64,000 nt of DNA, taken from Styela clava. Lineage: Eukaryota > Chordata > Ascidiacea > Stolidobranchia > Styelidae. The stretch lies in the NCBI RefSeq assembly GCF_964204865.1, contig NC_135250.1, positions 10,974,001 to 11,038,000 of the forward strand. Reading direction: 5' to 3'. Both the position numbers and the translations under genes were made by a program. The number at the start of each line of letters is the position of its first letter. Within the stretch, counting starts at the first letter, position 1. This document shows positions 7,257-59,301 of the stretch, piece after piece. The notes beneath the pieces were generated by a model. It saw only the letters and a list, made by a program, of their open reading frames with translations. It was not told where the DNA came from and made no database searches.

Positions 7257-9169
7257 ATGCAAATTTACTGCCGATGTCCGACACGGGTGAAATTCACTTA
7301 TTTATTTTGCTTTTCCTTGACTCTATGCCTTGTTCTCAAGATAGCAATTTTTATGTCTTCCCCTCCCGTAACCAAACAAAACATCGCAAAATATTTCGAG
7401 GCAACTTCAAACAAACTGACATTGCTTGCACACAAATACAACTGCGAAGCAATTGACGAGTTTCTCAAAAACGGCACAACCCCTAGAGAGCATTTGGAAT
7501 TTCTTGCGAAACCCTGGAGAATAAATGTATCTGCTTCTCCAGCTAGTTTATTTCACAACAATAACGTTGGTAAGTTGTTCATTTTGTCACGATTGTCTTT
7601 TACTGTATATTTGATAACATATAAAGAGGCACTTATTTGTATTTACAGTTGAATTATGGTCATCTATCGCTGTAGTCAAATCAAGTATTATGAACGAAAA
7701 TCGCAGGTTTGCTATTCGTGAAACATGGGGGAAATTCAAATTTATTGATGGAGTTAGACTCGAAACTGTATTTATCTTGGGAACTACTGATGATATTCAG
7801 CTACAAAAAGAAATAATAGAAGAAAATGGAATATACGGTGATATACTTCAGGTTGATCTACCAGACACCAAAGAGTAAGTATGAACACTGGGTATTCTAA
7901 TCGAATAAAAGCAAGTGTGTCTCAACGGAGCCATACAGAATAGTTGCAGTTAATCAATCATAATATTGATGTACATTACTAATTCACAAGCAATGACGTA
8001 TGGTAATAATCATTCGGTATAGAAAATTTGCAGCCGATGGTTTAGGACTTAATGGAATCATTTGCACATGGGTTGTATTATTGAATCAAGTATTGGCGAA
8101 GTCATACAATGATAACTCGTAACTTGAGAATCTTGAAACATATTTCAAGAGAGAAAACAAATAGCAAAGCGTCCTAGATTACTGAAACATTTGAGTCATA
8201 CACAATCATACACAAACAGAAGTTTAGGCTTTAAATAAATTTATTTTATTTTTAAGTTGTGTTTTTAGTCTTTAGCTTAATTAACTCTTTATGTTAAAAA
8301 AAAAACGTAATTAAGGCGGCTTCGGAGAAAAGGTTGTAGCATACAAACCAAACTAGGTGCTTATTTATTGGGTGAAGATTCGAAGAAATATTAAAAATAG
8401 GCTTGGCAACTGCAATCTTCTTCAATAACATATTTTTGAACATCCGTGCGCTCTGACAATGTGTGTACTCTGAAGACGTTAATGATATCATGCTTCCTAT
8501 CATTTTCTTAGAAATGTTCCTGCAAAGACGTTGGCGGGAATGAGATGGATTTCTCAAAATATCCCGGACACCTGGCTTTACTCTTCAGTAGACGATGACT
8601 TCATCCTACATCCACCAAATTTCATCCGATACGTTGAAAGCGTGAAACGAGATAGAATTTCCAAAACTCTACCAATCATGTGTATTTACGCTTACAGAAA
8701 AGCCGAGGAGATTAATAGAAAAAGAGGCAGTCCTTGGTATATTTCACCAGAGCAGTATGCAGCAAAGAATTGGCCCCCGTACTGTCGCGGTGGTTGGTAT
8801 ACAATGCCAACGGAAACCGCTTCAAAATTGTATGAAATATCAAGAACCACTCCGTTTCTAAAACTTGATGATGTTTGGATAACAGGTATAATAAGGCTTA
8901 TCATGAACGATCGTGAAAATAAACCGGTTCCTCCAGGTAGCCATGTCTCCGAGTACGGTATTACTTTTGCTCCCCTGGCGGATAGAACAAACAATCAATT
9001 GTATTATAATCAATATGAGAATGATTTAGGCAAGGTGATAGTCAGCCATACTTGGTCCGGTAATTATGGCCTGTTTGCACATAGTATTGAAAATGATATA
9101 GAAAATATTTGGAGTAAGTGGGAGACAGCGGTATTGGAGAGAATGAAATATTATATTCAAGCGATTTAA
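7257..9169 (+). CDS. beta-1,3-galactosyltransferase-like (GT31), three exons
   Basis: Predicted type II Golgi glycosyltransferase of family GT31, which transfers galactose or N-acetylglucosamine in beta-1,3 linkage from a UDP-sugar. Coding exons: 7257-7569, 7649-7874 and 8512-9169, all GT-AG, giving 398 residues in frame. Residues about 13-33 form the single N-terminal membrane anchor. Family motifs seen: RRFAIRETWG (123-132), VFILGTT, the metal-binding DDD (207-209) within SSVDDDF, YCRGGWYTM (270-278) and LDDVWITG (298-305). Candidate N-glycosylation sites lie in the stem (NGTT, NVSAS). An AATAAA signal lies at 9556-9561. A paralogue with identical intron phases is at 32447-34767 on the other strand. 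The exact acceptor sugar cannot be told from sequence. Confidence 0.9.
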
Positions 9170-13870
<4,701 letters not shown>

Positions 13871-16455: not shown

Positions 16456-17630
16456 ATGTTTCAGAGTATAAAAATATTCATAAAAGTATGTATCGCATCA
16501 ATGTCGTCCGTTCTCGGATTTTTGGTTGCCATGGTCGGATTTATGCACGAGGTCAGTCTAACTAAATGAGGTCATTACCAAAGTCATTTTAAGCCCAGAA
16601 TTATACCAAAACGTTGTAAAAGCCTACATAATTAAAATCGCGTGTGATATGGTCCAAAAAATCAAGCAGAATCTGACCTGAGAAGTGTTTAAAAAAAAAC
16701 TGACCCGATTTACAACTTTGCGATGCATAAGATACAATAACTGGACATAATTTATGCGCTGATTTCAAGTCATTTAACTTGAGTTTAATAATATTGTAAT
16801 AACTAAAATTTATATCATTTTATCCTACAATTGGCGCAGTTTTCAAGATTACAAAATGTTGTCGACTTATTTGAAGAGCCAAATATTAGTATGAAATATA
16901 CAATATATATGTTATCATAAAGTTATAAATAATAATAATATAATGACCAAAATAAATGATGATACGCGACATAGGCAAATATTTTCAGCTGATAACCTTA
17001 AATGTGTTTCATAGTTGTTAAATACGTGAGTGTAGCATGGAGATAGATTAGTAGATATGACGTTTGCTTTTCTTTTTCAAAGCACTGACGATTGCAACGA
17101 ACCAACCAACAATTACAGCGAATAAACCAACGTTTGCTGCGCATAAACCAGAGTTTGCTTCATATCTACCAACGTTTGCTTCATATCAACCAACAGTCGC
17201 TTCAAATCTACCGAAGTTTGCCTCACATCAACCAAAGTTTGAACCAAATCTACCAAAGTTTGCTTCACATCAACCAAAGTTTGAACCAAATCAACCAAAG
17301 TTTGCTTCACATCAACCAAAGTTTGAACCAAATCAACCAAAGTTTGCTTCATATCAACCAAAGTTTGAATCGAATTTACCAGAGTTTGCTTCACATCAAC
17401 CAAAGTTTGAACCAAATCCACCAAAATTTGCTTCACATCAACCAAAGTTTGAACCAAATCAACCAAAGTTTGCTTCAAATCAACCGACGTTTGCTTCAAA
17501 TCAACCAATAGTTTCCCAAAATCTACCAACGATTGCTCAACATAAACCAAAGTTTGCTTCAAATCAACCAACAGTTGCTCAAAATCAACCAACGTTCGCT
17601 CAAAATCAACCAAAGTTTTCTCAGAATTAA
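16456..17630 (+). pseudogene. heptapeptide-repeat gene copy A, start codon lost
   Basis: Paralogue of the gene at 26122-26970. The exon 1 equivalent ends at 16551 (donor GAG|GTCAGT); the repeat exon runs 17083-17630 after the acceptor CTTTTTCAAAG. In the frame that joins the repeats, exon 1 reads KSMYRINVV..GRIYAR, matching the intact copy's KSIYYINAV..GQINGR. A one-base deletion has turned the expected ATG into CAT, and the hydrophobic core is gone. A different hydrophobic frame from ATG 16456 leads into an immediate TGA after splicing. The repeat exon itself stays open for about 180 codons of QPKFASH/QPKFEPN heptads. Likely a decayed copy; a frame-restoring splice form is possible but not visible. 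Confidence 0.65.
17083..17630 (+). repeat. 21-bp tandem repeat array A
   Basis: This is a tandem array with a 21-bp period and a higher-order 42-bp unit alternating the QPKFASH and QPKFEPN codings. It ends with QPTFAQN-type units and a TAA. Two other frames, one of them antisense, are also open simply because the period is a multiple of three. Confidence 0.9.
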
Positions 17631-18360: not shown

Positions 18361-18863
18361 ATGCTCGAATATGTCGACAAGGTGGGCAACACAAAATATT
18401 TTATCTCATCAATTCCCTGAAAATCATACACGGTAAATTACCAGTAGCCGTATCGGGAGGCGAAGAATTCGACTACCCAGACAACTCATCAGAAACAACT
18501 CGACTACTCAGGGTACTGACGAAAATCCATTCTTCATGATTAGGTTTCAACGTGAATTAAAACACCAACTGATCCGAGTCACTTATGTATCATCAGACCA
18601 GATCCCACAGTCTACCGTTCCTAATAAAAAGTTCCCACTTTCGCTAAGCACGAGATTCGCCGACTTTCGCACAGCATAATGTCCGCTGATAAATTCCAAT
18701 GACGTCATAGCACACAAAGAAAAAATATATATCTTTCACCACTGGAAATTTCAAAGCGATTGGTCCAGTAATTAGAAATAAAAGTGATTTTTCCTAACGA
18801 TAGAAACAAAAATATCATGAACAACAACTTAATAACAAAACGAGGACCTCCTGTCCCGAAGAA

Positions 18864-18984
18864 GTGGGACACGTGGTACAAGTGGGACACGTGGTACAAG
18901 TGGCACACGTGGTACAAGTGGGAAACGGGGTACAAGTGGTACACGTGGGACAAGTGGGGCACGTGGTACAAGTGGGACACGTGG
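18864..18984. repeat. 18-bp minisatellite carrying CACGTG in most units
   Basis: About seven tandem units of GTGGGACACGTGGTACAA. Each unit is itself two related 9-bp halves (GTGGGACAC and GTGGTACAA). The E-box hexamer CACGTG occurs six times. Open frames through the array are a by-product of the 18-bp period. Confidence 0.9.
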
Positions 18985-20898: not shown

Positions 20899-21061
20899 CA
20901 ACTAAATTGCGTTTCGCCCTCTGTCGAAGACTTGGGGATGAAATCTTCCCCGTGGAGGTTATTGCATTTTTATGATATTATTTGAAAACAATTGTTTCCA
21001 CTTTCTCACTTCTTTCCGGCTTCGCATTTCTTAGCCTTAGACCTCATAATGAATAAGGTTG

Positions 21062-23121
21062 ATGCACTACTCGCAGCTGCCGCTGGAACAAAAATTAGAG
21101 GTACAACGTCTTGGGCCTTATCAACCAAAAAATTGTTCACTGAAACAGTCCCATGACGGAGGAAAGCGTCGGCGTACATTCTGCGCAGAAACTTGGTATA
21201 AAAAACACGAATGGTTGTGTTACAGCGAGGACAAAAATGCACTTTTTTGTTTTTATTGCCTACTTTTTGCTATCGCCCGTGACTCACGTTGGTGTAAATT
21301 TGGTTTTAGAGATCTTAAACATCTTTCCGAGCGTGCCAGGGATCATCAATCTTCTATGGAGCATCTGGACAATGCAGTAAAATACCGAACATTCGGAAAT
21401 GTTAATATTGCAGCACAGTTGGATGAAGGACGCGCGGTTTCTATTCGTCGGCACAACCAAAACGTCGAGAAAAACCGCCATGTTCTCGGTCGATTGATAG
21501 ATGTTTTGAAGTTCATTGGTTGTCACGAGCTGTCCCTCCGTGGGCACGATGAACGGGCTGGCTCTTCTAATAGAGGGGTATTTTTGGATATGGTGGAATA
21601 CATCGCATCCCTAGATACAGTATTGAGAGATCATCTTGATGCCGAAACTGTTTCGAAAGGGACATCTAAGGATATCCAAAATGATTTGCTCGACTCAATG
21701 TATAAAATTTATTTACAAGACTTGGCTCTGGAAATTGAGAATTGCCAGTTCCTTTCGATTCAGTCTGACGAGACAACTGACATCACGTGCGTTTCCCAAC
21801 TGGCTGTGATTTTTCGGTTTGTGAAAGATGGTAAACCTACCGAGAGATTTCACAGCTTTGTACCAATCGTTGATCGCACGGCTTGCGGGATATCGGCTGT
21901 ACTGAAAGAAGTGTTACAGCCTTACAACGCGAAGTCAAAATTGATAGCCCAAACTTATGACGGCGCGGCAGTCATGAGTGGGTCGAAACAAGGTGTTCAA
22001 GTTTATATAAAAGAGGATTTTCCTCATGCGCATTTTTTACATTGTTATGCACACCAATTTAACCTCGTTATCAAAAATATGTGTCTTGATACCCCTCTTG
22101 TCCGTATATTTTTTGCAAATGTTTCGGGGTTTTCTTCATTTTTTTCCGTTTCGCCGAAGCGCTCTGACCTCCTTCGCCAGATATGTAGCCGCCGTCTCCC
22201 AGCTTGTGCACCAACACGTTGGAACTTCCTATCACGCGTGGTGCAGGGCGTGTCCGAAATTAGGTCTGAGCTCATTGAGAGTTTCAATGGCATTCAGAGC
22301 TCTCCGGTTTGGGACGAACGCTCTGTGAGGGAGGCGGCAGGTCTAAAGCGTCTGCTAGAAGATGGTGAGTTTTCATTTTTTCTCGCTTTTTTCTCCACAA
22401 TATTCTATCACGTGGATGTATTATACGGCGCATTGCAGTCAAGGCTAATGGATGGAGCGTCTGTGCAGTCGTGTATTTCAGACTTCTGCGATGCTGTATC
22501 TCGTATCCGGGAAACATAAAAATACGACGACACATGGAGTGCTTCTTTACGCCGCGGGCAAACAACGCAGCTTTTGATTTTGTCTGCAAAGGAATGCTGT
22601 GACATTCTGGTGAATCAGATATGCGATCGTCTGCGCACTGAACACCTTGCCGCGTTCTCTTTGATAAACCCAAAAATTTTTCAAAATTTGCACGTCAATT
22701 TCCCATCCATTTGTTGGCTACTGTCTCCAAATTTTACCCCATGATAAACGTGGGTAAATTGGAAAATGAATTGCGATGTATATACACCAATCAAACTTTT
22801 TTAAAAATCACATCAACTTGCGCGCTCTATGAGTTCCTCATAGATAACACTCTAGTAACTACCTTTGCGGCGTCTGCAAAATTTCTGGACATCATTTTGA
22901 CGACGCCTATTTCTTCCGCCGACGCAGAGCGAACATTCAGCACGCTGAAGCGTATTAAAACGTATCTCAGAAACACAATGAAGCAAGATAGATTAAATTC
23001 CTTGGCTGTTTTATCCATTCACAAAGACGTTATTTCTGGGATGAATGACTTTAATCAGCGCGTTATTGAGCATTTTGCTTCCAAGAAACCGCGGCGTGTT
23101 GGATATATGTTCAAGCAGTAG
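21062..23121 (+). pseudogene. hAT transposase (ZMYM1-like), broken
   Basis: Reading from about 21062: a TTF-type zinc finger (CAETWYKKHEWLCYS, then the CFYC pair), a DUF4371-type core with LSLRGHDE, the catalytic-region motif QSDETTDIT, HCYAHQFNL, and APTRWNF. The C-terminal hAT dimerisation domain (SSADAERTFSTLKRIKTYLR) is in the segment from 22711 to 23121. A stop at 22517-22519 and a frame change before 22711 interrupt the frame, so the copy is inactive unless spliced. Such enzymes cut and paste hAT DNA. A likely right terminus, CGCGCCGCCACTG, ends at 23534; I did not find the left one. Confidence 0.85.
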
Positions 23122-23640: not shown

Positions 23641-24060
23641 AGTCCAGTGATTGGAGAGGAAAGAGACTTTTTCACAATAATAAGAAGAAAAATACTAACA
23701 ACAAAAATAAGAACAATAACATAATAACAAAACGACGCATGTGTACACTTCCTGTTAAATAATAATATAATAACCATAATAAGTGACGGTACACAACACA
23801 GGAAAATGCTGTTAGATAATTGGCTTGAATGTGCTCAATAGATGTTTAACTCGTGAATGTAGCGCTATGATAGAGTAGTAAACATGCATCACGTTTACTT
23901 TATTGACACGAAATGGACCTATGGATCGTTTTGTTGTTATGTTGTTGTTGTTCAAATTCAATCAATCAAATTTTGCACGAAATCAATCAACGTTTGCTCC
24001 AAATTACCCACAGTTTGCTTTAAATCAAACAACGTTTGTTGATGTTAACAGTTTTGTTCT
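23641..24060 (+). pseudogene. heptapeptide-repeat gene remnant D
   Basis: About four degenerate 21-bp units at 23950-24035 encode NQSNFAR, NQSTFAP, NYPQFAL and NQTTFVD. The upstream context resembles copy A (GTAGTAAACATG versus TTAGTAGATATGACGTTTGC), but the acceptor is damaged and there is no terminal stop in phase. No signal exon is seen. Confidence 0.6.
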
Positions 24061-25630
24061 TGTGTCTTCTGAATTGACAGCTAGATCAATGGCATGAATA
24101 GGATAATATTATAATTATGCTTATTATAATCAATATTTTATTATAATTTGTTATATTATAATAAAAATTGAGCTTGATATTTTTCGAAGAAAATTCAATT
24201 TGAAAAATATTCAATTTTTTTTATATTTGTACATATTTATACCACAAAAAGTATTTCCCATTTTCGTAGAATTATAATATGGTACATATGTATTTCATCT
24301 TTCATGAGAAATCTGCTTCAATCAAAATCACATGCGATCACATAGAAAACCACAAAATTTACAGTGAAGTAACGAGCAATTCTTGTAACCTTGAATCCAT
24401 TCAATAAATTTTGTAAAAAGTCAGGTTAACGAGCAAGTAACCTTGTCTTCCAAAAAGACAATAGTGAAATCTGGTAACTGGTAACTAACTGGACTTGGCG
24501 CGCGGTGACATCGATCCCGAAATTGTACGCACGAAAATTGTGAACGAAACTCATTATCTGATCACTCGCCTGCGACAGCAGTCTGGGTCCGAGGAGCATA
24601 TTTAATTACAGTTGCCTTGCCCTACTTACCTTTTTGTAGACGGAGCTTCCGAATCAGCGTAAAATTTGTATTGTATAACAATAATCGATTGCACATTTGT
24701 TTGGGTATCATGAAACATGTGATGAACAGGCAATGGCCCACAAAATTTCACGTCGCTATGAGGTAATAGTACGTCAAGATGTATCGTACATCGTGCATAT
24801 ACATAATTGTCTTCCAGTCCCCACTGCTCTAGCTTAAAGTAGGCACAGCTTGATTGATACTTTCACGATCTTTTTTTGTAGCGCACAAATTGTGTGTAAG
24901 TTATAGAATAAAAAAAACAATATAAAAAAATTTCTATAAAATATTTCAATACAATGAAATTGAAGATCCCCACGTTGAAAGCTGCCCAACACAGTATATA
25001 TATTCCATTCGATATGCCTTCATGGCCCCTAATAAGAACGCCGAAGGTTGGTGAAATTGCCCCGCAGATCATTGAAAACACAAAGTTTATATTTATGTAT
25101 GGTGAAGAGTTGAAGATATTATTATTGAGTACAAACGGAAAAGAGGAAACTCTGTACGCTAGGAACTCCGGGCACGAAAAATGCACATACATATTACATA
25201 ATATGCCTATATGTATAGTTAAAATTATGGGTTTTTGATAAAAATTCATTTTATTACCGCGGTATGCTTTAAATAAAAGGTTAAAAACATGAAGTCTAAT
25301 AAGTCCACATCATGTCAAAGTCCACCATCAAATACCCAATATAGAAGGAAGGAAGCACATAAGCCAGTATCCACATAATGCATTCCAATAAAATCACTGT
25401 GTTATGCCCGACCTTTAGCACTTAGTAGAAACAACTGAAATGAATTTCATAAAATATATATAAATAGACGTTTTTAATCGGGCATTGACTTAGATTGTCT
25501 GCGTCCTTATGCTGCAACATCTTACATTTATAGGTATGTATATATATTTGATAGATCTTAGGCTATAGTGGGTTTCAGATATAGATTTCAACTCGAATGC
25601 TTTATTTTCCACAAAATTAGCAGTTAAATC

Positions 25631-25854
25631 GGTACTCCCGTAGTCTGTGTACCAGGTTAGGGTTAGGGCATAATTTTTTCCCGATTTTCCTTATTTTAGT
25701 TCTATTACGTCTTACGAAGTTTGAGTATTGTCTGTGTTAGCCAAGTGAATATACCCCTGCTCATAAGTTTCAGTCCCTTTACACAACTTGATGAAAGGTA
25801 TAGGCGAACAAAATTAGTTACCTTCATATTGGTACACACACTTCTGGAGCGCCG
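25631..25854. mobile_element. palindromic MITE (GGTACTCCCGTAG family)
   Basis: Left end GGTACTCCCGTAGTCTGTG, right end ACACACTTCTGGAGCGCC, with GTACCA/TGGTAC mirrored inside the termini. It is present in unit B but not in unit C at the equivalent place, so it probably inserted after the duplication or was lost in C. Confidence 0.75.
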
Positions 25855-26121
25855 TTGAATCTTTACAAAAATTCGGTGAATATATATTTTGTTTTTATAA
25901 AGAGTTAATCGCTAACATTCTAATCGGTGTCGTTTATTTAATGGAATCATAATTTATATGGACGCGACTTATTTAAAAATATTTTGCATTAAAACTTGTG
26001 ACCTTAACTCAAGTTAGTAGTATGAAAACTGAGTTTCTTCCTCGTGATACCCAGCATTGCGAGTAAATCTGTGGTTAAATGTGTTACAGCTAACAAAGAT
26101 ATTCAGAAACAAGCAACTACC

Positions 26122-26970
26122 ATGAAAAGTATATATTACATCAACGCCGTTTGCTTGCTGATTCTCAGTTACTCTGGTCAGATTAACGGACGAGGTGAGA
26201 GTAATTGAGTAGGAGCCATTATGTATTTGAAGTTATCCCCAAACCCAAAGTATTTCAAAACGTTGCAAATTTCGAACGGATTAAATTTTAAAGTGAGGTG
26301 ATCTGAAAAAATTCCAGCCTAATTCGGATCGAGATGTGTAAGAGAACTGGTACCTAGCTTATAACTTTACGATTATCCATTGACAATTACTGATATTATT
26401 TCACGCGCTGTTTTCAATCCATGTCTTTGTTATTTTTATGGCAACTAAATTTTTTTTTAACTGATGAGGTAAAAAGTAAAGAGCCAAATTAGGGAATACG
26501 TTATGATATGTCACTTTTTTAGCCTAATAGGATACAATTAAATTAATATCTGTTTAATACCTGAGCGTACCGTGAAGCAATGAGTTCTCATTGCGTGAAG
26601 AGAGCGAAAATATAACCTTTGTTTTTTTCTTTTCAAAGCACTATTCGCACCAAATCAACCAATCTATGCACCAAATCAACCAACATTCACACCTAATCAG
26701 CCAACGTTCACACCAATTCAACCAACATTTGCACGAAATCAACCAACCTTTGCATCAAATCAACCAACATTCGCACCAAATCAGCCACCGTTTACACCAA
26801 TTCAACTAACATTTGCACCAAATCAGCCAACCTTTGTACCAAATCAAACAACATTCGCACCAAATCAACCAACGTTTACACCAAATCAACCAACATTTGC
26901 ACCAAATCAACCAACCTTTGCACCAAATCAACCAACATTCGGACCAAATCAACCAACATTTGCTCCATAA
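26122..26970 (+). CDS. secreted heptapeptide-repeat protein, two exons, intact copy B
   Basis: Unrecognised gene. Exon 1 (26122-26194) starts ATGAAAAGT and encodes a signal peptide: KS, then a hydrophobic core INAVCLLILSYSG, with a likely cut after ING near residue 23. The donor is G|GTGAGA. Exon 2 (26639-26970) follows a strong acceptor (TTTTCTTTTCAAAG) and keeps the frame (phase 1), giving 134 residues. After the signal, the product is about 15.6 tandem heptads of consensus QPTFAPN ending QPTFAP-stop, with no cysteine, almost no charge, and regular Pro, Thr and Asn. An AATAAA lies at 27326-27331. There are no dibasic cleavage sites, so a classical neuropeptide precursor is unlikely. A structural, mucin-like or mucus/tunic matrix role is possible but is inference. 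Confidence 0.7.
26639..26967 (+). repeat. 21-bp tandem repeat array B
   Basis: Tandem units of the form CCAACATTYGCACCAAATCA, period 21 bp, about 15 copies, encoding QPTFAPN. Most substitutions keep Pro, Phe and Asn positions, and no unit carries a stop or a length change that breaks the frame. Confidence 0.9.
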
Positions 26971-27759
26971 CAAGGAAGATTTAGACAACATGATATATCA
27001 TTCGAGGGCATCATATTTATCCTATAAAAATATGTTTTCTGTGTCACCCCAAATATGTATTTTTCTTCAGTGACTATTATTATTCAAGAATATCAAAGAA
27101 AATGGGCGCTGATACATACTATTTCAACAGTTAGCTCCATATTTTTTGGTTACATTGTATTTCTTCGCCGCCATCATAAATCAGTGTTAAATTTATATAT
27201 ATATCATAAGTTCTGCAAACTCATATTGATAATTTATTTCCGTTGGTTCTTGTTCAGACAATAATGCGTCGTAGTTGGGATTATATTGTCAAAATAGTGA
27301 AAATTTTATAACTTGGAACGAAGCCAATAAAAATGTTAACCAGAATTGTACACTATAATCGTTAATCGAACTTCCTATGGGATTCCCATTGGAATACAAT
27401 TTTTTATTAAATTTTTTAAAATTTAGGTTCAGTGGCCATTAACTAGCACTCTATGTACAAAGAGACATGTCAAGTTTCATCCGAATCCGAAAGGTGGAAT
27501 TATGCTCGCGCTCTAGAAACTAAACGCAGTAGTCCACTTTGCCCAAGGGAAATACAAATATGTGCTCCCAATTGCCTTGCGTTTCCCGCTTGTCCCATGC
27601 GTCCACTTGTACCGTGGAAAATGCGAATGTGTTCTGTCCTATCCCATCACATGATACGTTTCCCATGGTTTAGCCTGGTTACCTGGATATCAAGTTGGAA
27701 TCGTGTCAACTTGAGAGTGCTTGGGAAATAGAAATGATGCGTTTGCCGGAAGTATTTTA

Positions 27760-27800: not shown

Positions 27801-29549
27801 CAATTAATTAATTCATGCTAAAGAATTTGCGATTGATATTTTTCGAAGAAAATTCAATTTGAAAAATATTCAAATTTTCATATACATATACCACAAGAAG
27901 TATTCCCCATTTTGTAGAATAATAATATGGTATATATATACATGTGTAATTCACGAAAAATTTGCTCCAACCAAATTTACATAGAAAACCACAAAATTTA
28001 CAGCAAAGAAACGTGCGATTCTTGTAACCAGGAATTCATTCAACAAACCAAACCAAGTCTCCCAAAAACACAATAGTGAAATCTCGTGAATCTCATTCAC
28101 AAAGGATTTATCGTAAAGACTTGGCGTGCGGTCACATGCGGTCCCCGTAATCGTACGCACGAAGGTTGTGAACGAAACTCATTATCTGGTCACTCATTCG
28201 TATCACTCGCCTGCGTCAGTAGTCTGGGGCCGAGGAGCATATTTAACTACAGTTGCCTTGCCCTACTTAATTTTTTGTAGTTGGAGCTTTCGAATCAGCG
28301 TAAAATTAGTATTGTATACCAATAACCGATTGCGCATTTGTTTAAGTATCATGAAACATGTGATTAACAGGCAATGGCACCGCAAAGTTGTCAAATTTCA
28401 TGTCGCTATGATATAATAGTACGTTAAGATGCATCGTGCTGCATATTCATAATTGTCTTCAAGTTCCCACTGCTCTAGCTCAGAGTAGGCACGACTGGGT
28501 TGACACTTCGACGATATTTTTTTGTAGCGCGCAAATTGTGTGTAAGTCATGGAATCAAAAACAATATAAAGAAAATTTCTAACAAATATTTCACTACAAT
28601 GAAATCGAAGATCCCCACGTTGAGAGCTGCCCAACACAGTAAATATATATATTCCATTTGATATGCCTCCATGGCCCCCTAATAAGAACGCCGAAGGTTG
28701 GTGAAATTGCCCCGCAGATCATTGAAAACACAAAATTTATATTTATGTATGGTGAAGAGTTGAAGTTATTGTTATTGAGTACAAATGGGAAAAATTGGAA
28801 ACTATGTATGCTAGGAACTCCGGGCACGGCAAATGCACACACATGTTACATAATATGCCTATATATATGTATAGTTGAAATTATGGGTTATTTATATAAA
28901 ATCATTTTATTTACGAGGTATGCTTTAATAGGTTAAAAACATGATATTTCATATAGTCGACATCATGTCAAAGTCCACCATCAAATATCCAATACAGAAG
29001 GAAGGAAAGCCATTATCCACATAATGCATTCCAATAAAATCACAGTGTTATGCCCGACCTTTAGCACTCAGTAGGAACAACTGACATGAATTTCACAAAA
29101 TATAAATAGACGTTTTTGATCAGGCATGACTCGGATTGTCCGCGTCCTCATGCTGTAACATCTCACATTCGTGGGTCTATGTATGACAACTTTTAGGCTA
29201 TTGTGGGTTTCACATTTAGATTTGAACTCGAATGCTGTATTTTCTACAAAATTAGCAATCTTTAAAAGAATTCAGTGATTAAATATATTTCATATTTATG
29301 AGGAATAATCAGTAAAACTCTAATGTCTCTATGTCGTATGACAACTAAATTTTTTAACCGATGAAGCAAAAAGTTGCCAATTTATTTAAAGAGCCAAATT
29401 AGGGTATGAAATAAATCATGATATGTCACTTTTTTAGCCTAATAGGATGAAATTAAGTTAATATCTGTTCAATACCTGAGCTTACCTTGAGGCAATGAAT
29501 CCGCATTGCGTGAAGAGAGCGAATATATGACTTTTTTTTCTTTTCAAAG

Positions 29550-29962
29550 CACTATTTGCACCAAATCAACCAACGTTAGCACCAAATCAACCAACGTTTG
29601 CTCCAAATCAACCAACGTTTGCACCAAATCAACCAACGTTTGCTCCAAATCAACCAACGTTTGCACCAAATCAACCAACGTTTGCTCCAAATCAATTAAC
29701 GTTTGCTCCAAATCAACCAACGTTTGCACCAAATCAACCAACGTTTGCAACAAATAAACCAACGTTTGCACCAAATCAACCAACGTTTGCGCCAAATCAA
29801 CCAATGTTTGCACCAAATCAACCAACGTTTGCACCAAATCAACCAACGTTTGCACCAATTCAACCAACGTTTACACCAATTCAACCAACATTTGCACCAA
29901 ATCAACCAACCTTTGCACCAAATCAACCAACATTCGGACCAAATCAACCAACATTTGCTCCA
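29550..29962 (+). repeat. 21-bp tandem repeat array C
   Basis: About 19-20 units of CCAACGTTTGCACCAAATCA. Units are nearly identical in the first two-thirds, which implies recent expansion or homogenisation. The last four units match the last units of array B (ending GGACCAAATC..GCTCCATAA), so expansion happened upstream of a fixed 3' end. Confidence 0.9.
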
Positions 29963-29965
29963 TAA
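29550..29965 (+). pseudogene. heptapeptide-repeat exon, copy C, without its own signal exon
   Basis: Acceptor TTTTCTTTTCAAAG, then a 416-base exon in the same phase as the intact gene. It encodes about 19-20 heptads, more uniform than copy B (most read QPTFAPN exactly), ending in TAA with AATAAA at 30316-30321. The upstream interval that should hold the signal exon is deleted. It is either an orphan exon or an alternative last exon reached from 26194; the phase would allow that splice. I call it a probable pseudogene with that alternative open. Confidence 0.55.
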
Positions 29966-30665
29966 CAAGGAAGATTTAGACAACATAATATATCGTTCGA
30001 GAGCATTATATCTATCCTATAAAAATATGTTTTCTGTGTCACGCCAAATATGTATTTTTTTTTTCAGTGACTACTTATATTCAAGAATATCAAAAAAATG
30101 GGCACTAATACATACTTTTCAACAGTTAGCTTCATGTTCTTTTGGTCACATTGTATTTCTTTGCCGCCATCGTAAATCAGTGTTAAACCTTTACCATAAG
30201 TTCTGCAAACTTATATGGATAATTTACTTCTGTTGGTTCTTGTTCAGACAATAATGCGTCGTTGTTAAGATTATATTGTCAAAATAATACAAATTTTATT
30301 ACTTGGAACGAAGTCAATAAAAATGTTAACCAGAGCTGTACGCTATAATCGTTTTTCGATTTTTTTTTAGATTAGGCGTTCGCTGAACTATTCAATTTGA
30401 CTTGTAAAACCGTCGTTGGTGTCTAATAATTCAGCGGGTTCTACACGAAATTCTTTGAATGAGTCCCAACTCCCAATTACTTATAGTCCCAGGGAGTTGG
30501 ATCAAACGGACGTTTCCCATGGTTCAGCCTGGTTATCCGGATATCAAGTTGGAATCGTGACAACTTAAAGAGTGCTTGGGAAATAGAAATTATGTGTTAG
30601 GTTGTCGGAAGTCTTTCATATTTGAGCTTAGCCGAGTGGGTGACGGGTCTTAAATCTTCAATTGA

Positions 30666-32446: not shown

Positions 32447-34767
32447 TCAATCAGAACTACCAAATGTAACAAAATACTTCATTCTTTCCATGAAAGAGTT
32501 CTCCCATTTGCTCCATATATTGCGAATATCATCATCAATATTATGCCGAAGCCAGCCGTAATTTCCAGACCAGGTGTGAGTGACAATAACTTTGTTTAAA
32601 TCGTCTTCAAATTTATTCCAGTATAACTCATGGTTCGTTCTGTTCGCAAGAGGAGCATAAGTAATACCCTCTTCTGAAAGAAGACTACCGGGAGGAATAC
32701 TTTTGCCTTCTTGGTTGTTCACCATAACTCTCATTATCCCGGTAACCCAGACATCGTCAAGATATAAAAAGGGAGTTGTTCTCGATACTTCATACAACTT
32801 TGACGTTGTTGCAATTGGCATTGTGTACCAACCGCCACGGCAATATGGGGGCCAATATTTTGCGGGATATTGTTCAAGCGAAACGAACCAAGGACTCTCG
32901 GGTTGTCTATCGGGTTCTTCAGCTTGTCTATAACCATAGATACACATGATAGGAAGTGGATGAGAAGGTATTCTACGTCGCATTGTCTCTATATATCTAA
33001 GGAAATTTGGGAGGTGAATCGCAAAGTCGTCATCTGCTGATGAATATAACCAATTTTGCGGTAAATAAGTCGAGGCCCATCTCATTCCAGCCAGAAGTTT
33101 GAGAGGAACGTTTCTGTGTTGAAAAACATTGAAAGTTTTACCTAGTTTGAGGATAATAAATATTTAATTGAATTATTAGAAAAGGTTAATACTACTTTTT
33201 TAACATAAAATGAAAGAATTTGGCGCCTTCAGTAAAACATTTAATTTACAATTTAGAATCTTACGAATATCATAAACTTAAGATCTGAGGCTTCGACTGA
33301 AATAGAAATAAAAAAGCTCCATTCGATATACATTTATTCTATGTTAATTGCTTTACTTTCTTTACAAACTACTGAAGACCATTTTCATTAATTAAATACA
33401 ACTTACTCTTTGGTGTCAGGTAGATCAACCTGAAGTATATCGCCATATATTTGATTTTCTTCCTTTATATCACTTTGCAGATGAATATTATTAGTAGTTC
33501 CCAAGATAAAAACAGTTTCAAGTCTGACTCCATCAATAAATTTGAATTTACCCCACGTTTCACGGATGACATTTCGTCGTTTTTTATTCAATAAACTCGA
33601 CTTTACTACGGTGATAGATGACCAGCTTTCAACTGCAATAAAACAGAGAAGTCCATATAAATGCAGTCTGGAAATGATCTCTAAATATGATAAAACTGCT
33701 AAATATCAGTTGGTATACAGCAGCTTATTATTCGAACGATAATATTTATTGTATGTAAAACATAAGTTAGCGATATAAATTCAGTTAAGCATGCCAATTG
33801 TCAGTACAATAACTAGATAACTCTTAGAATACATTATACTAAATTCAAAAGCTAATTTAATCTACAAATGACCAGAGAAATTGAATAGTATGATAAGGTT
33901 TTATTTTGTATTCCACAAAAATACTTTTAATTTTAAACGGTACTCTTGAGGATATTACATCACTCAGAAATTATGTATATAATAGCGAACGAAACGCCAA
34001 ATAGGCTTCAAAGCATCAGCATTTTAAGATAAAGGATTGTATGTAATAAATGGTATTTGTGACAAATCTGTACAACACTCTATTTATAAAAACATTGTTT
34101 CAAAAAGATATTTACGCAAATTCTACATAACATGCGTGGTGATATTACCATTATACAAATATTTGTAATAGATTTTGCATATTCAAAACGGAATTATGTG
34201 GTTTTACTTCTATAAACTGCACATTTACATAAAGTTCTTTTTTTGATTTTGTCTCAATTTTTAAAAACTCAATTTCCGATAGCATATATTTCAAATTTTC
34301 ATTTCAAGCTAAATCACGTTGTATAAAACCGATATATTTTTCTCACCATTGATTTTGTCTTTAAATAAACCTGCTCTAGACGATGAAATATTTACATTCC
34401 AAGGTGAAACAAGAATTTTAATGTGTTTTCTTTGTGTCGTTCCATTTTTAATAAATCCATCAATTTCATTGTATTTCTTATGGTGTGCTACTAATCTGGG
34501 ATGTTCATATTGAAGCTTCATAAGTTTTCTTCCATTTGTGCCATTCGAATGCAAATGGAGCACCACAAACGCTAACTTAAACATAACACAGGCAATTATG
34601 AATATGCACATTAATATAATACTCCGCCTTTTGTTCCCATCGCGATACCATTTTAAAGACTTCACAAAGGTTATGCACTTATTCCTAACTTGCATCTTCA
34701 CTGATCCTGTAAAAAAGAAATGCCAAGCATTAAGTCGTCTTTTTAAACGGAAGTTTTCTGCTGACAC
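32447..34767 (-). CDS. beta-1,3-galactosyltransferase-like (GT31), second copy, three exons
   Basis: Paralogue of the gene at 7257-9169. Coding exons on the minus strand: 34767-34347, 33632-33407 and 33113-32447, giving 437 residues. The intron phases (1, then 2) and the 226-base middle exon are identical to the first copy. A longer cytoplasmic tail precedes the membrane anchor (about residues 47-70, IILMCIFIIACVMFKLAFVV). Motifs: RRNVIRETWG, VFILGTT, SSADDDF (DDD metal site), YCRGGWYTMP and LDDVWVTGIM. The stem has NGTT and NISSS glycosylation sites. It is predicted to be Golgi-resident and active; the acceptor is unknown. An upstream in-frame start is possible, as the N-terminal tail is long for the family. 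Confidence 0.88.
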
Positions 34768-56093: not shown

Positions 56094-56787
56094 GTCTTCA
56101 CCGTTTTGTTTCTTTACATATATAGTTTAGTCGAGCAGGATCTGGCCAAACGACAGAAGAACGACGTACGAAGATGAAGATCGACTTGTTTATTTTGGCG
56201 TCCTTTGTCGCCATCGTTTTTATGACATGCATGGCTGCACAAGGGAATACAGGGATGTGATGAAAAATATTGGTTACCTTGGTATGTTAGTCGTTGGTTA
56301 CCTTCATAATTGAAAGTACAAAAAATGGGAATAATGTTGATATTTTTATTTTAACTTCTGAGGTTGAATATAACTGGCGTGCATTTAGTGTTGATAAGAT
56401 AAGTAACCATCGGTCCCATTTACTTACTCTATAAAGTAAACAATGCATACATGTAACGTAAATAGGATAGGATTTACATGAGCCACACCGCACATTCCTG
56501 GATAAGTAAAATTATACTCAATAATGATTAAATATTTTCTGTAGTTAGTCGATAAACATACGGTACTTTTAGCGAGCGTTCGTGGCCTGTGTTAAAAAAA
56601 TTAAACATAAATTACCACCGGATAGCGCTCTCAAATTAAACCCAAAACAGCAGGAAACCGACGTGTTCTTCATTTACGTCATAAACAATATTGCCCCATT
56701 TCTTATGCTGCGTTGGTCGGGTCAGCAGCGTTTCAGGAACAAGTTTTCGCAGGGAAATTTGGTACTAAACAATTACTATTCTGAGGT
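56094..56787. promoter_or_regulatory. divergent promoter interval between the LRR gene and PKD2
   Basis: These 694 bases separate two start codons on opposite strands, so promoters and leaders of both genes must lie here unless leaders extend further. A 28-codon plus-strand frame with a signal-peptide-like sequence lies at 56174-56260. No clear TATA box is visible. Confidence 0.5.
56174..56260 (+). CDS. micro-ORF with signal-peptide-like sequence, uncertain
   Basis: 28 codons from ATGAAGATC to TGA. The sequence has a charged start (MKID), a hydrophobic run (LFILASFVAIVFM) and a small-residue stretch (CMAAQG) that would suit signal peptidase. It may be an upstream ORF of PKD2, the first exon of an unseen secreted peptide gene (a weak donor AT|GTGATG overlaps the stop), or chance. 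Confidence 0.25.
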   Translation: MKIDLFILASFVAIVFMTCMAAQGNTGM

Positions 56788-59301
56788 ATGGAAGACGATA
56801 CTAACGGTAGGGGAGAATATAATAATGGAGGGCAACCCAGTGAAATGTCCATGGAGGCGTACGTGTCGACGGTAGGTGCTGGAAGAAACATGTCTTACGA
56901 CAACATGGGTGCACAGAGCGAGTTTGGGGATGATTCAGGAGATCGCAAGAGTTGGTGGGCCGGTTTGAAGAAAGGTGTCCGTGGCCTATGGGGTACTCGT
57001 CACACAGAGGATACCACAAATGATCGTGAATTATACATTCGTACAACCCTTCGTGAATTGATTATTTACGTTTTCTTCTTGGTAACTCTTTGCATCTTAA
57101 CTTTTGGAATGACTAGTTCGACTCATTTTTACTATACAAAAGTGATGCAAGAGCTATTCCTTGACACCCAATTCACAGAAACAACCAACAATTTCCGAGG
57201 TATCACAACAATGCAAGATTTTTGGCGATTTGCAGAAGGGCCATTGATGAATGGATTATATTGGGAAAAATGGTATAACAATCAAAACGTCTCAGAAGAA
57301 GATCTTGGTTATATTTATTATGAGAATAAGCTACTTGGAGTTCCTCGAATGAGACAACTGAAAATTCAAAATGGATCTTGTCAAGTTCACCCAGATTTTC
57401 AGAATGAAATAACTGCATGCTTCGATTCCTATCATGCAGATAAGGAAGATACGACCCCATTCGGAAAAGAAAATGGTACTGCCTGGACTTATCAAACAGA
57501 AGAAGAATTGGATGGATCCTCTCATTGGGGTTTACTTGATGTGACCTATTCTGGAGCAGGATATGTTCAAGATTTGTTTTCAACAAAAGCAGCGTCGTTG
57601 CCCCTCATTGAAGATCTGAAAACTAACTTATGGCTTGATCGTGGAACTCGTGTTGTATTCATTGATTTTTCGGTATACAACGCTAACATCAATCTTTTCT
57701 GTGTCGTTCGCTTGGTTGTTGAATTTCCTGCTACTGGAGGAGCATTGCCATCTTGGCAATTTCGTACTGTAAAATTGATTCGATATGTTTCTACTTACGA
57801 TTATTTCCTCATGGCTTGTGAAATTTTGTATGTGCTATTCATTGTGTACTACATTGTGGAAGAGATTTTGGAAATCAAGCGTCACAAGTGCAAGTACTTT
57901 GGAAGTTTCTGGAATTGTTTGGACATTCTTGTAATTGTCCTTTCCATTATTGCTTTTGCATTCAACATCTATCGGACTGTGAAAGTTGATAGCCTGCTAA
58001 ATGGCCTCCTGGATAATCCTCATATTTATGCTGATTTTGAATTTCTCGCTTTCTGGCAAATGCAATACAACAACATGGTGGCCGTTGTTGTATTTTTTGC
58101 TTGGATCAAGATTTTCAAGTACATCAGTTTTAATCGAACGATGACACAATTGCAATCGACACTTTCACGCTGCTCTAAAGATATTGCTGGATTTGCGATA
58201 ATGTTTTTTATCATATTTTTTGCTTATGCTCAGCTCGGCTATTTGGTTTTCGGAACTCAAGTCAAAGATTTCAGCACTTTTGAGGAAAGTATTTATACTC
58301 AATTTAGAATTGTTCTGGGAGATTTTGATTTCCACGAGCTGGAATCTGCGAATCGTCTTCTTGGGCCAATCTTTTTCCTCACCTATGTCTTCTTTGTATT
58401 CTTCGTTCTGCTCAATATGTTCTTGGCCATCATTAATGATACTTATTCTGAGGTCAAAGCTGAAATATCTGTCCAAAAAAGCGAGTTTGAGATCTCTGAT
58501 TACATCAAGCGTGGATACAACAAAGTTCTGGAAAAGCTTTCATTGAAAAAAGACCGAATTCGTGACATTCAAGACGCCATACAATCTGCTGATTTGAATC
58601 ATGACAGACAACTGGACTGGGAAGAATGGCGATTAGATTTAAAAATGCGTGGAATACCTGACGCCGAAATTGAAGCTGTTTTTGCAAAATACGATCAAGA
58701 TGGTGACATGATACTGAATGAGGATGAACAGAAACGAATGCATGCTGATTTAGAGAAAGAAAAAGCGGATTTGAGTAATGAATTAGATGAAATTGAACGT
58801 GAGAAAACCGCAGCTGGAGGTACTGGAAGTTCATCTTCGCATCGACCACCTTCTGCAAGATCCAAAGTTTCACACGTCAGCGCTGCGGAGTCGGGGGCAG
58901 ACAGTGATGACGACGATGATGATGATGACAACCGCCGTATTGATTCTAAAAATCTCGTTTCTCAAGATGATTTCCAGATATTGACTCGTCGTGTAGACAG
59001 AATGGAACACAGCATCGGATCAATTGTCTCTAAAATCGACGCCGTAATTGTGAAATTGGAAGCAATGGAACGAGCGAAACTGAAACGCAGAGAAACGATG
59101 GGAAAACTTCTTGATAGCATAAACGAAGACAAACCAATGGAACGATATGTGAAAGAAGAATTTGACCAACTCGTATTGGAAACATCACCAAATGAAGAAC
59201 GTCACATGGGACGACCCCAATCTGGTAGATCTACAGCATCAGCGGGTCGTGGGTTAGGCCTTGGCCTTAACCTGGGTGTCAACGACCAAAGTCACGCATG
59301 A
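56788..59301 (+). CDS. PKD2: polycystin-2 (TRPP cation channel), intronless
   Basis: Calcium-permeable TRPP channel of cilia and ER membranes, typically acting alone or with PKD1-type proteins. The coding region is one uninterrupted frame of 837 residues from ATG 56788. Layout: cytosolic N-terminus; S1 about 89-110; extracellular polycystin (TOP) domain about 111-335; S2-S5 between about 338 and 490; the pore with filter Leu-Gly-Asp (510-512, in RIVLGDFDF); S6 527-550 ending [15 protein letters not shown]. Then two EF-hand loops (602-613 [12 protein letters not shown] and 636-647 [12 protein letters not shown]), an acidic tract, and the conserved trimerisation coiled coil ([20 protein letters not shown], about 735-795). 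AATAAA at 59765-59770. Vertebrate PKD2 has many introns; none is present here. Confidence 0.95.

Follow-up and report, generated by a model that had tools for sequence, protein, structure and literature searches.

The interval 26122–26970 (+) of the analyzed window, a stretch of 64,000 nucleotides from Styela clava, probably harbors a real and young secreted repeat-protein gene, hereafter gene C, that belongs to a partly decayed local family. Its product would most likely be a disordered secreted protein of a coat, mucus, or adhesive, specific to the lineage. The repeat is built from QPTFAPN-type heptads, and the gene stands in a cluster of related arrays (A, B, C, and D) on the same strand.

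The two-exon structure given in a preliminary description, with its start codon, phase-1 donor, and repeat exon continuing in phase to a stop, was recovered in full. The leader exon (26122..26194, +; 73 nt) begins with the ATG at 26122, encodes the predicted signal peptide MKSIYYINAVCLLILSYSGQINGR, and ends in CGAG, followed after 26194 by a phase-1 GT donor (GTGAGA). The hydrophobicity ascribed to this leader was borne out by a maximum 9-residue value of 2.82, as measured by the Kyte–Doolittle scale only. The predicted intron (26195..26638, +; 444 nt) is bounded by GT and AG and carries a T-rich tract, with the acceptor region at 26620–26638 ending in CAAAG. The repeat exon (26639..26970, +; 332 nt) terminates in a TAA codon at 26968–26970 (+), and the phase-1 join gives a predicted product of 134 aa, MKSIYYINAVCLLILSYSGQINGR-A-LFAPNQPIYAPNQPTF...QPTFAP*. 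The repeat, earlier counted as about 15 heptads, consists of 14 full heptads and partial units at either end; the exact QPTFAPN sequence is found in three of the 14, and the remaining heptads differ from it at 1–3 residues. The array lies beyond chance, with TRF scores of 419 (period 21) and 512 (period 84).

The mature part comprises 110 of the 134 residues, including 28 Pro, 18 Thr, 15 Phe, 15 Gln, and 13 Asn. It contains one Arg, one Tyr, and one Ser and is devoid of Lys and acidic residues, in agreement with the low charge described previously. The reported absence of Cys applies to the mature part and not to the leader, which contains the only Cys of the product. A possible polyadenylation signal AATAAA also exists (27326..27331, +; equivalent to that at 30316 in the block of array D), but this nearest downstream hexamer on the + strand lies 356 nt beyond the stop, outside 26122–26970. 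As AATAAA occurs 197 times on both strands of the window against 166 expected, its presence near gene C is weak evidence. The GC content of the window ranges from 28 to 42%, with 25 of the 32 two-kb steps at 32–38%.

Gene C is one of three long arrays (A, C, and D) that, together with relic B, lie within 13 kb. The preliminary description had overlooked this cluster, the tandem duplication of C and D with the loss of the leader in D, and the resemblance of the heptad spacing to that of the RNA polymerase II (Pol II) C-terminal domain (CTD). DNA self-comparison delimited one duplicated block with gene C (24165..27369, +) and another with array D (27824..30359, +). The D block lacks a counterpart of roughly 25914–26437, a stretch that in C holds the leader exon and the greater part of the intron, and no leader of its own was found within 1 kb of array D. 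The D repeat exon (29550..29965, +) nevertheless contains 18 full heptads behind the same acceptor and phase as in C, with 137 open codons ahead of the stop and a hexamer match to a possible AATAAA signal (30316..30321, +). Paralogue A comprises a leader-exon homologue (16488..16551, +) with an ATG and a GT donor in phase 1, together with a repeat exon (17083..17630, +) of 25 heptads of the QPKFASH/QPKFEPN type, ending in TAA (17628–17630) two units ahead of the position of the stop in C. Relic array B (23960..24038, +) retains 3.8 degenerate units. The cluster expanded by duplication, from A and B and then to C and D.

Neither paralogue, A nor D, has kept a complete secreted gene. Among the relatives compared, which were paralogues only, the two-exon structure persisted in part: A keeps the ATG, donor, acceptor, and phase, but its leader is non-hydrophobic in the array frame (best 9-residue hydrophobicity of 0.89 versus 2.82 in C), and D is leaderless. 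A hydrophobic frame present in the A leader (16501–16551), MSSVLGFLVAMVGFMHE, runs to the homologous donor in phase 0 and does not match the array frame. These losses bear on the reading of the cluster as one in decay, in which the proteins were secreted once, A and D have since lost a working leader, and C may be the last copy or already silent. The missing leader exon of D, relic B, the lack of a hydrophobic core in the array frame of the A leader, and the early stop of A would all fit such decay; however, C is intact in the features tested, and arrays C and D keep their frame, and we regard this reading as quite unlikely.

The retention of the acceptor, the phase, the 137 open codons, the stop, and AATAAA in D despite its lost leader would also be expected if one leader, that of C, served two interchangeable last exons, C or D, so that isoforms would carry either 14 or 18 full heptads. 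Between 24000 and 29549, no + strand phase-1 leader other than that of C has a donor score of at least 3, and the join of the C leader to the D exon is open through to the stop of D. Frame retention in D could, however, be a result of homogenization, and we consider a shared leader unlikely. Still more doubtful is the composite proposal of a secreted polymer of CTD-spaced heptads (FAPNQPT) whose length depends on which of two duplicated last exons is joined to the signal-peptide exon that they share, the second copy having lost its own leader.

The repeat itself is a poor guide to coding. In 4000 arrays simulated from random 21-mers of the window with ~8% effective change per base, 78% were open in some frame and 57% in a + frame, and the openness of a 21-bp array is therefore weak evidence on its own. 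The probability of encountering no stop by chance was 0.41 for C and 0.58 for D; for A, it was 0.011 with 84 changes placed at random, though changes in the real array depend on one another. Of the six frames, that of QPTFAPN alone runs free of stops across all full units of C, D, and A. The simulation favors an explanation in which the arrays, as non-coding minisatellites, stay open by virtue of their 21-bp unit, which preserves any stop-free frame, and the leader and splice sites are coincidental. The genome also contains open 21-bp arrays in other contexts, such as those with NLHPTPE (L022, L026, and L027) and SINQPVD (L031) units. Against this explanation stand the rarity of the leader, the acceptor and phase conserved in three arrays, the absence of frameshifts relative to the flanks, and the stop-free course of A over 25 diverged units, and we hold it to be rather unlikely.

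The rarity of the leader was assessed by scanning the 64 kb on both strands and in three phases for ATG leaders of 15–40 codons closed by a GT donor that scored moderately or higher; the scan was home-made, with donor weights from the consensus and our own hydrophobicity rule in place of a trained predictor. Two strongly hydrophobic matches were obtained, namely the leaders of C (phase 1) and A (phase 0). That of C, with a donor score of 6.5, was the sole phase-1 hydrophobic leader with a good donor on either strand of the window, and the four of 504 one-kb windows that held such a leader overlapped one another and each contained C's own. Hydrophobicity can nevertheless arise without fitting the array, as in the other frame of the A leader. 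The acceptor core is CTTTTCAAAG|CACT at C and D and CTTTTTCAAAG|CACT, with one extra T, at A, and the splice phase is identical in the three arrays. This acceptor and phase recur despite an identity of only 54% between the A and C introns.

Comparison of C and D provided evidence on the frame. Their non-coding flanks (1942 aligned bp, 87–90% identical) contain 30 indels, 24 of which are not multiples of three, whereas no frameshift separates the two exons, against ~4.6 expected from the flanks (P about 0.01). The length difference between the exons, 84 nt, equals four units. The segment 26900–26999 is 99% identical between C and D, and the remaining aligned 100-bp segments are 81–97% identical. 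Unit exchange within arrays can erase frameshifts without selection.

Synonymous changes in the QPTFAPN frame were in excess when all unit differences were counted, in C (16 of 31 changes versus 9.4 expected, P 0.0015) and in D (9 of 19 versus 5.2 expected, P 0.028). Significance was lost when each distinct change was counted a single time (P 0.18 for C, with 5 of 16; P 0.12 for D, with 5 of 14), as the minisatellite explanation would have it, and array A had no excess (22 of 84 versus 21.5 expected). Moreover, one minus frame of D showed an equal excess (9 of 19, P 0.035) despite 16 stops over 18 units, indicating that such an excess is possible without coding. Antisense coding was rejected, with stop counts in the three minus frames over full units of 2, 14, and 5 in C, 2, 16, and 1 in D, and 17, 19, and 1 in A. 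Array A has a long minus frame of 181 aa, the counterparts of which in C and D contain stops.

Considered jointly, the rare leader, the recurring acceptor and phase, the absent frameshifts relative to the flanks, and the synonymous excess suggest that gene C is probably coding. The first three features likewise lend indirect support to the earlier gene model and its predicted secretion, and the coding status of C is supported indirectly. We rate it as fairly likely that gene C is protein-coding, which is a judgement and not a computed value.

A genome DNA search with the gene returned A, C, and D only (6/6 matches), a search with the C leader region matched itself only, and no further copies outside the cluster were recovered in 376.6 Mb (379 contigs). 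In the 20-kb flanks on either side, there was no heptad match, and the leader query gave two chance-level matches (E 0.46 and 0.88). The genome protein search yielded at least 35 matches with E no higher than 1; five of them corresponded to A (two), C, D, and B, and three to the Pol II CTD, the YSPTSPS array of the genome on contig C8. The remaining 27 of the 35 were weaker, and the 22 of these that were inspected were mostly other low-complexity arrays or repeats; 30 of the 35 were inspected via the longest central frame, and these counts are lower bounds. The NLHPTPE arrays (L022, L026, and L027; contigs C6 and C66) are a heptad-coding minisatellite within a dispersed repeat of ~3 kb or more, copies of which are 92–96% alike over the longest aligned pieces and 85–88% over shorter ones. 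This repeat has two short matches only to the window DNA, both outside the heptad arrays.

Pfam gave no match for C or D and one sub-threshold match for A (E 0.07), and Rfam at gathering thresholds returned nothing in the window. None of the 22 and 4 pattern matches in bacterial, archaeal, and viral contigs was confirmed. The six rotations of the heptad unit appeared in no paper of the open-licence PMC literature, and a literature search for secreted lineage-specific heptads found none. The earlier remark that no family with this unit was known therefore holds for PDB, Pfam, prokaryotic and viral contigs, and the open-licence PMC literature.

The surroundings of the cluster include several other genes and repeats. 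Two related galactosyltransferase (PF01762) exons, at 8486–9166 (+) and 32447–33163 (−), flank the heptad cluster in opposite orientation and are about 69% identical over 647 aligned columns. A collagen-repeat frame behind a hydrophobic leader is located at 12516–13073, with a Pfam match for the collagen part only, and downstream of it (13168–13521), a stretch resembles, by eye, part of a C-type lectin domain. The region 18862–18984 contains another open-frame minisatellite, an 18-bp tandem repeat (AAGTGGGACACGTGGTAC, 6.8 copies) with open minus frames. A DUF4371 (PF14291) reading frame of 488 codons, which we take to be hAT-transposase-like, spans 21053–22516, with a further piece at 22642–23121 by eye. 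A Polycystin-2-like sequence of 838 codons (56785–59298; Polycystin_dom and PKD_channel) forms one uninterrupted frame and is intronless or a retrocopy. An RNA cyclase gene was also identified by Pfam among the neighbors in the window; together with the galactosyltransferase, collagen, and polycystin genes, it is in keeping with an animal source.

As to the product, the leader exon would provide a signal peptide directing the chain into the secretory pathway, and the second exon, which may have grown and been homogenized by exchange of 21-bp units, would encode a neutral, cysteine-free, intrinsically disordered heptad chain of Pro, Phe, Gln, Asn, and Thr. Phe, at about one per heptad, may act as a sticker, and Pro pairs at fixed places would keep the chain extended. 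AlphaFold prediction for D aligned with C and A showed no secondary structure (mean pLDDT 49, pTM 0.12); this model, a weak test of disorder with three related rows as input, contains no confident fold, as would be expected of a disordered chain.

Thr in the P-T-x-x-P setting would be a candidate O-glycosylation site, as GalNAc transfer to Thr is favored by Pro at −1 and +3. There are nine such sites in C, 16 in D, and none in A, which has a K/E-bearing unit variant. According to passages of one study, most GalNAc-Ts recognize a PXP motif next to the acceptor (PMC5716993); gene C agrees with this motif in part, having P at −1 and +3 and F at +1. Passages of another source (PMC6272458) contained nothing usable on flanking-residue rules for O-glycosylation. 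Once secreted, the chain, flexible and multivalent, could act as a polymer within mucus, cuticle, matrix, or an adhesive layer. A matrix, mucin-like, or adhesive role with O-glycosylated Thr is plausible by analogy, and secretion, glycosylation, and the biological role are what we infer for the product. We regard the chances as about even that C is a real lineage-specific two-exon gene, within a local cluster, for a secreted disordered multivalent polymer of such a layer.

If expressed, gene C would offer a compact example of how a secreted repeat protein grows and decays at one locus; of the four copies within 13 kb, each at its own stage, one is intact, one has lost its leader, one has a drifted leader, and one is a relic. 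It would also allow a test of how genes arise from a leader exon and a minisatellite, and its natural neutral Phe/Pro/Asn/Gln heptad polymer could be compared with the CTD and with disordered polymers made by engineering.

Several known systems share features with gene C. Adhesives of the mussel foot protein 1 type are secreted proteins with a short Pro-containing repeat that depend on Tyr/DOPA and Lys. The predicted product of C shares the secreted short Pro-containing repeat; its mature part has one Tyr and no Lys and thus falls outside the DOPA/Lys adhesives with Tyr- and Lys-rich repeats. Gel-forming mucins combine a Ser/Thr-dense PTS domain with cysteine-rich or vWD domains, and C, with 18 Thr and one Ser among the 110 residues of the mature part, no Cys there, and no Pfam match, does not belong to them. 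Schistosome MEG-4.1 is a gland protein with a central repeat region, resembling C in the repeat and in the candidate O-glycosylation. Passages of two reports describe that region as predicted to be heavily O-glycosylated and make no mention of a QPTFAPN-type heptad (PMC7046203, PMC5825161). MEGs are described as having short exons of 3–81 bp (PMC10526429), whereas C has a single 332-nt repeat exon; a schistosome micro-exon gene was ruled out by this exon and the 73-nt leader. Secreted Pro-rich repeat proteins likewise consist of a leader and then a short lineage-specific Pro-rich unit over most of the protein. In contrast to the plant members, C is from an animal, and hydroxyproline and the cell-wall context are not among the likenesses.

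The heptad itself has its aromatic and proline residues spaced as in the CTD of Pol II RPB1 (YSPTSPS), sharing, in the FAPNQPT register, an aromatic residue at position 1, Pro at 3 and 6, and a hydroxyl residue at 7. All PDB matches with E up to 1, the values being inflated by repetition, were to the Pol II CTD (18/18 sequences for D and 17/17 for C). However, C has no polymerase, is predicted to be secreted, and carries Phe instead of Tyr and N/Q for T/S at positions 4 and 5; its heptads are predicted behind a leader exon and are not attached to RPB1. Since 24 of the 360 circular arrangements possible for the unit (counting the real one) fit the CTD as well or better, we read the likeness as probably a convergence on an aromatic/proline heptad. 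Overall, gene C appears to encode a further fast-evolving, lineage-specific protein of a coat, mucus, or glue and not to represent a system of a new type.
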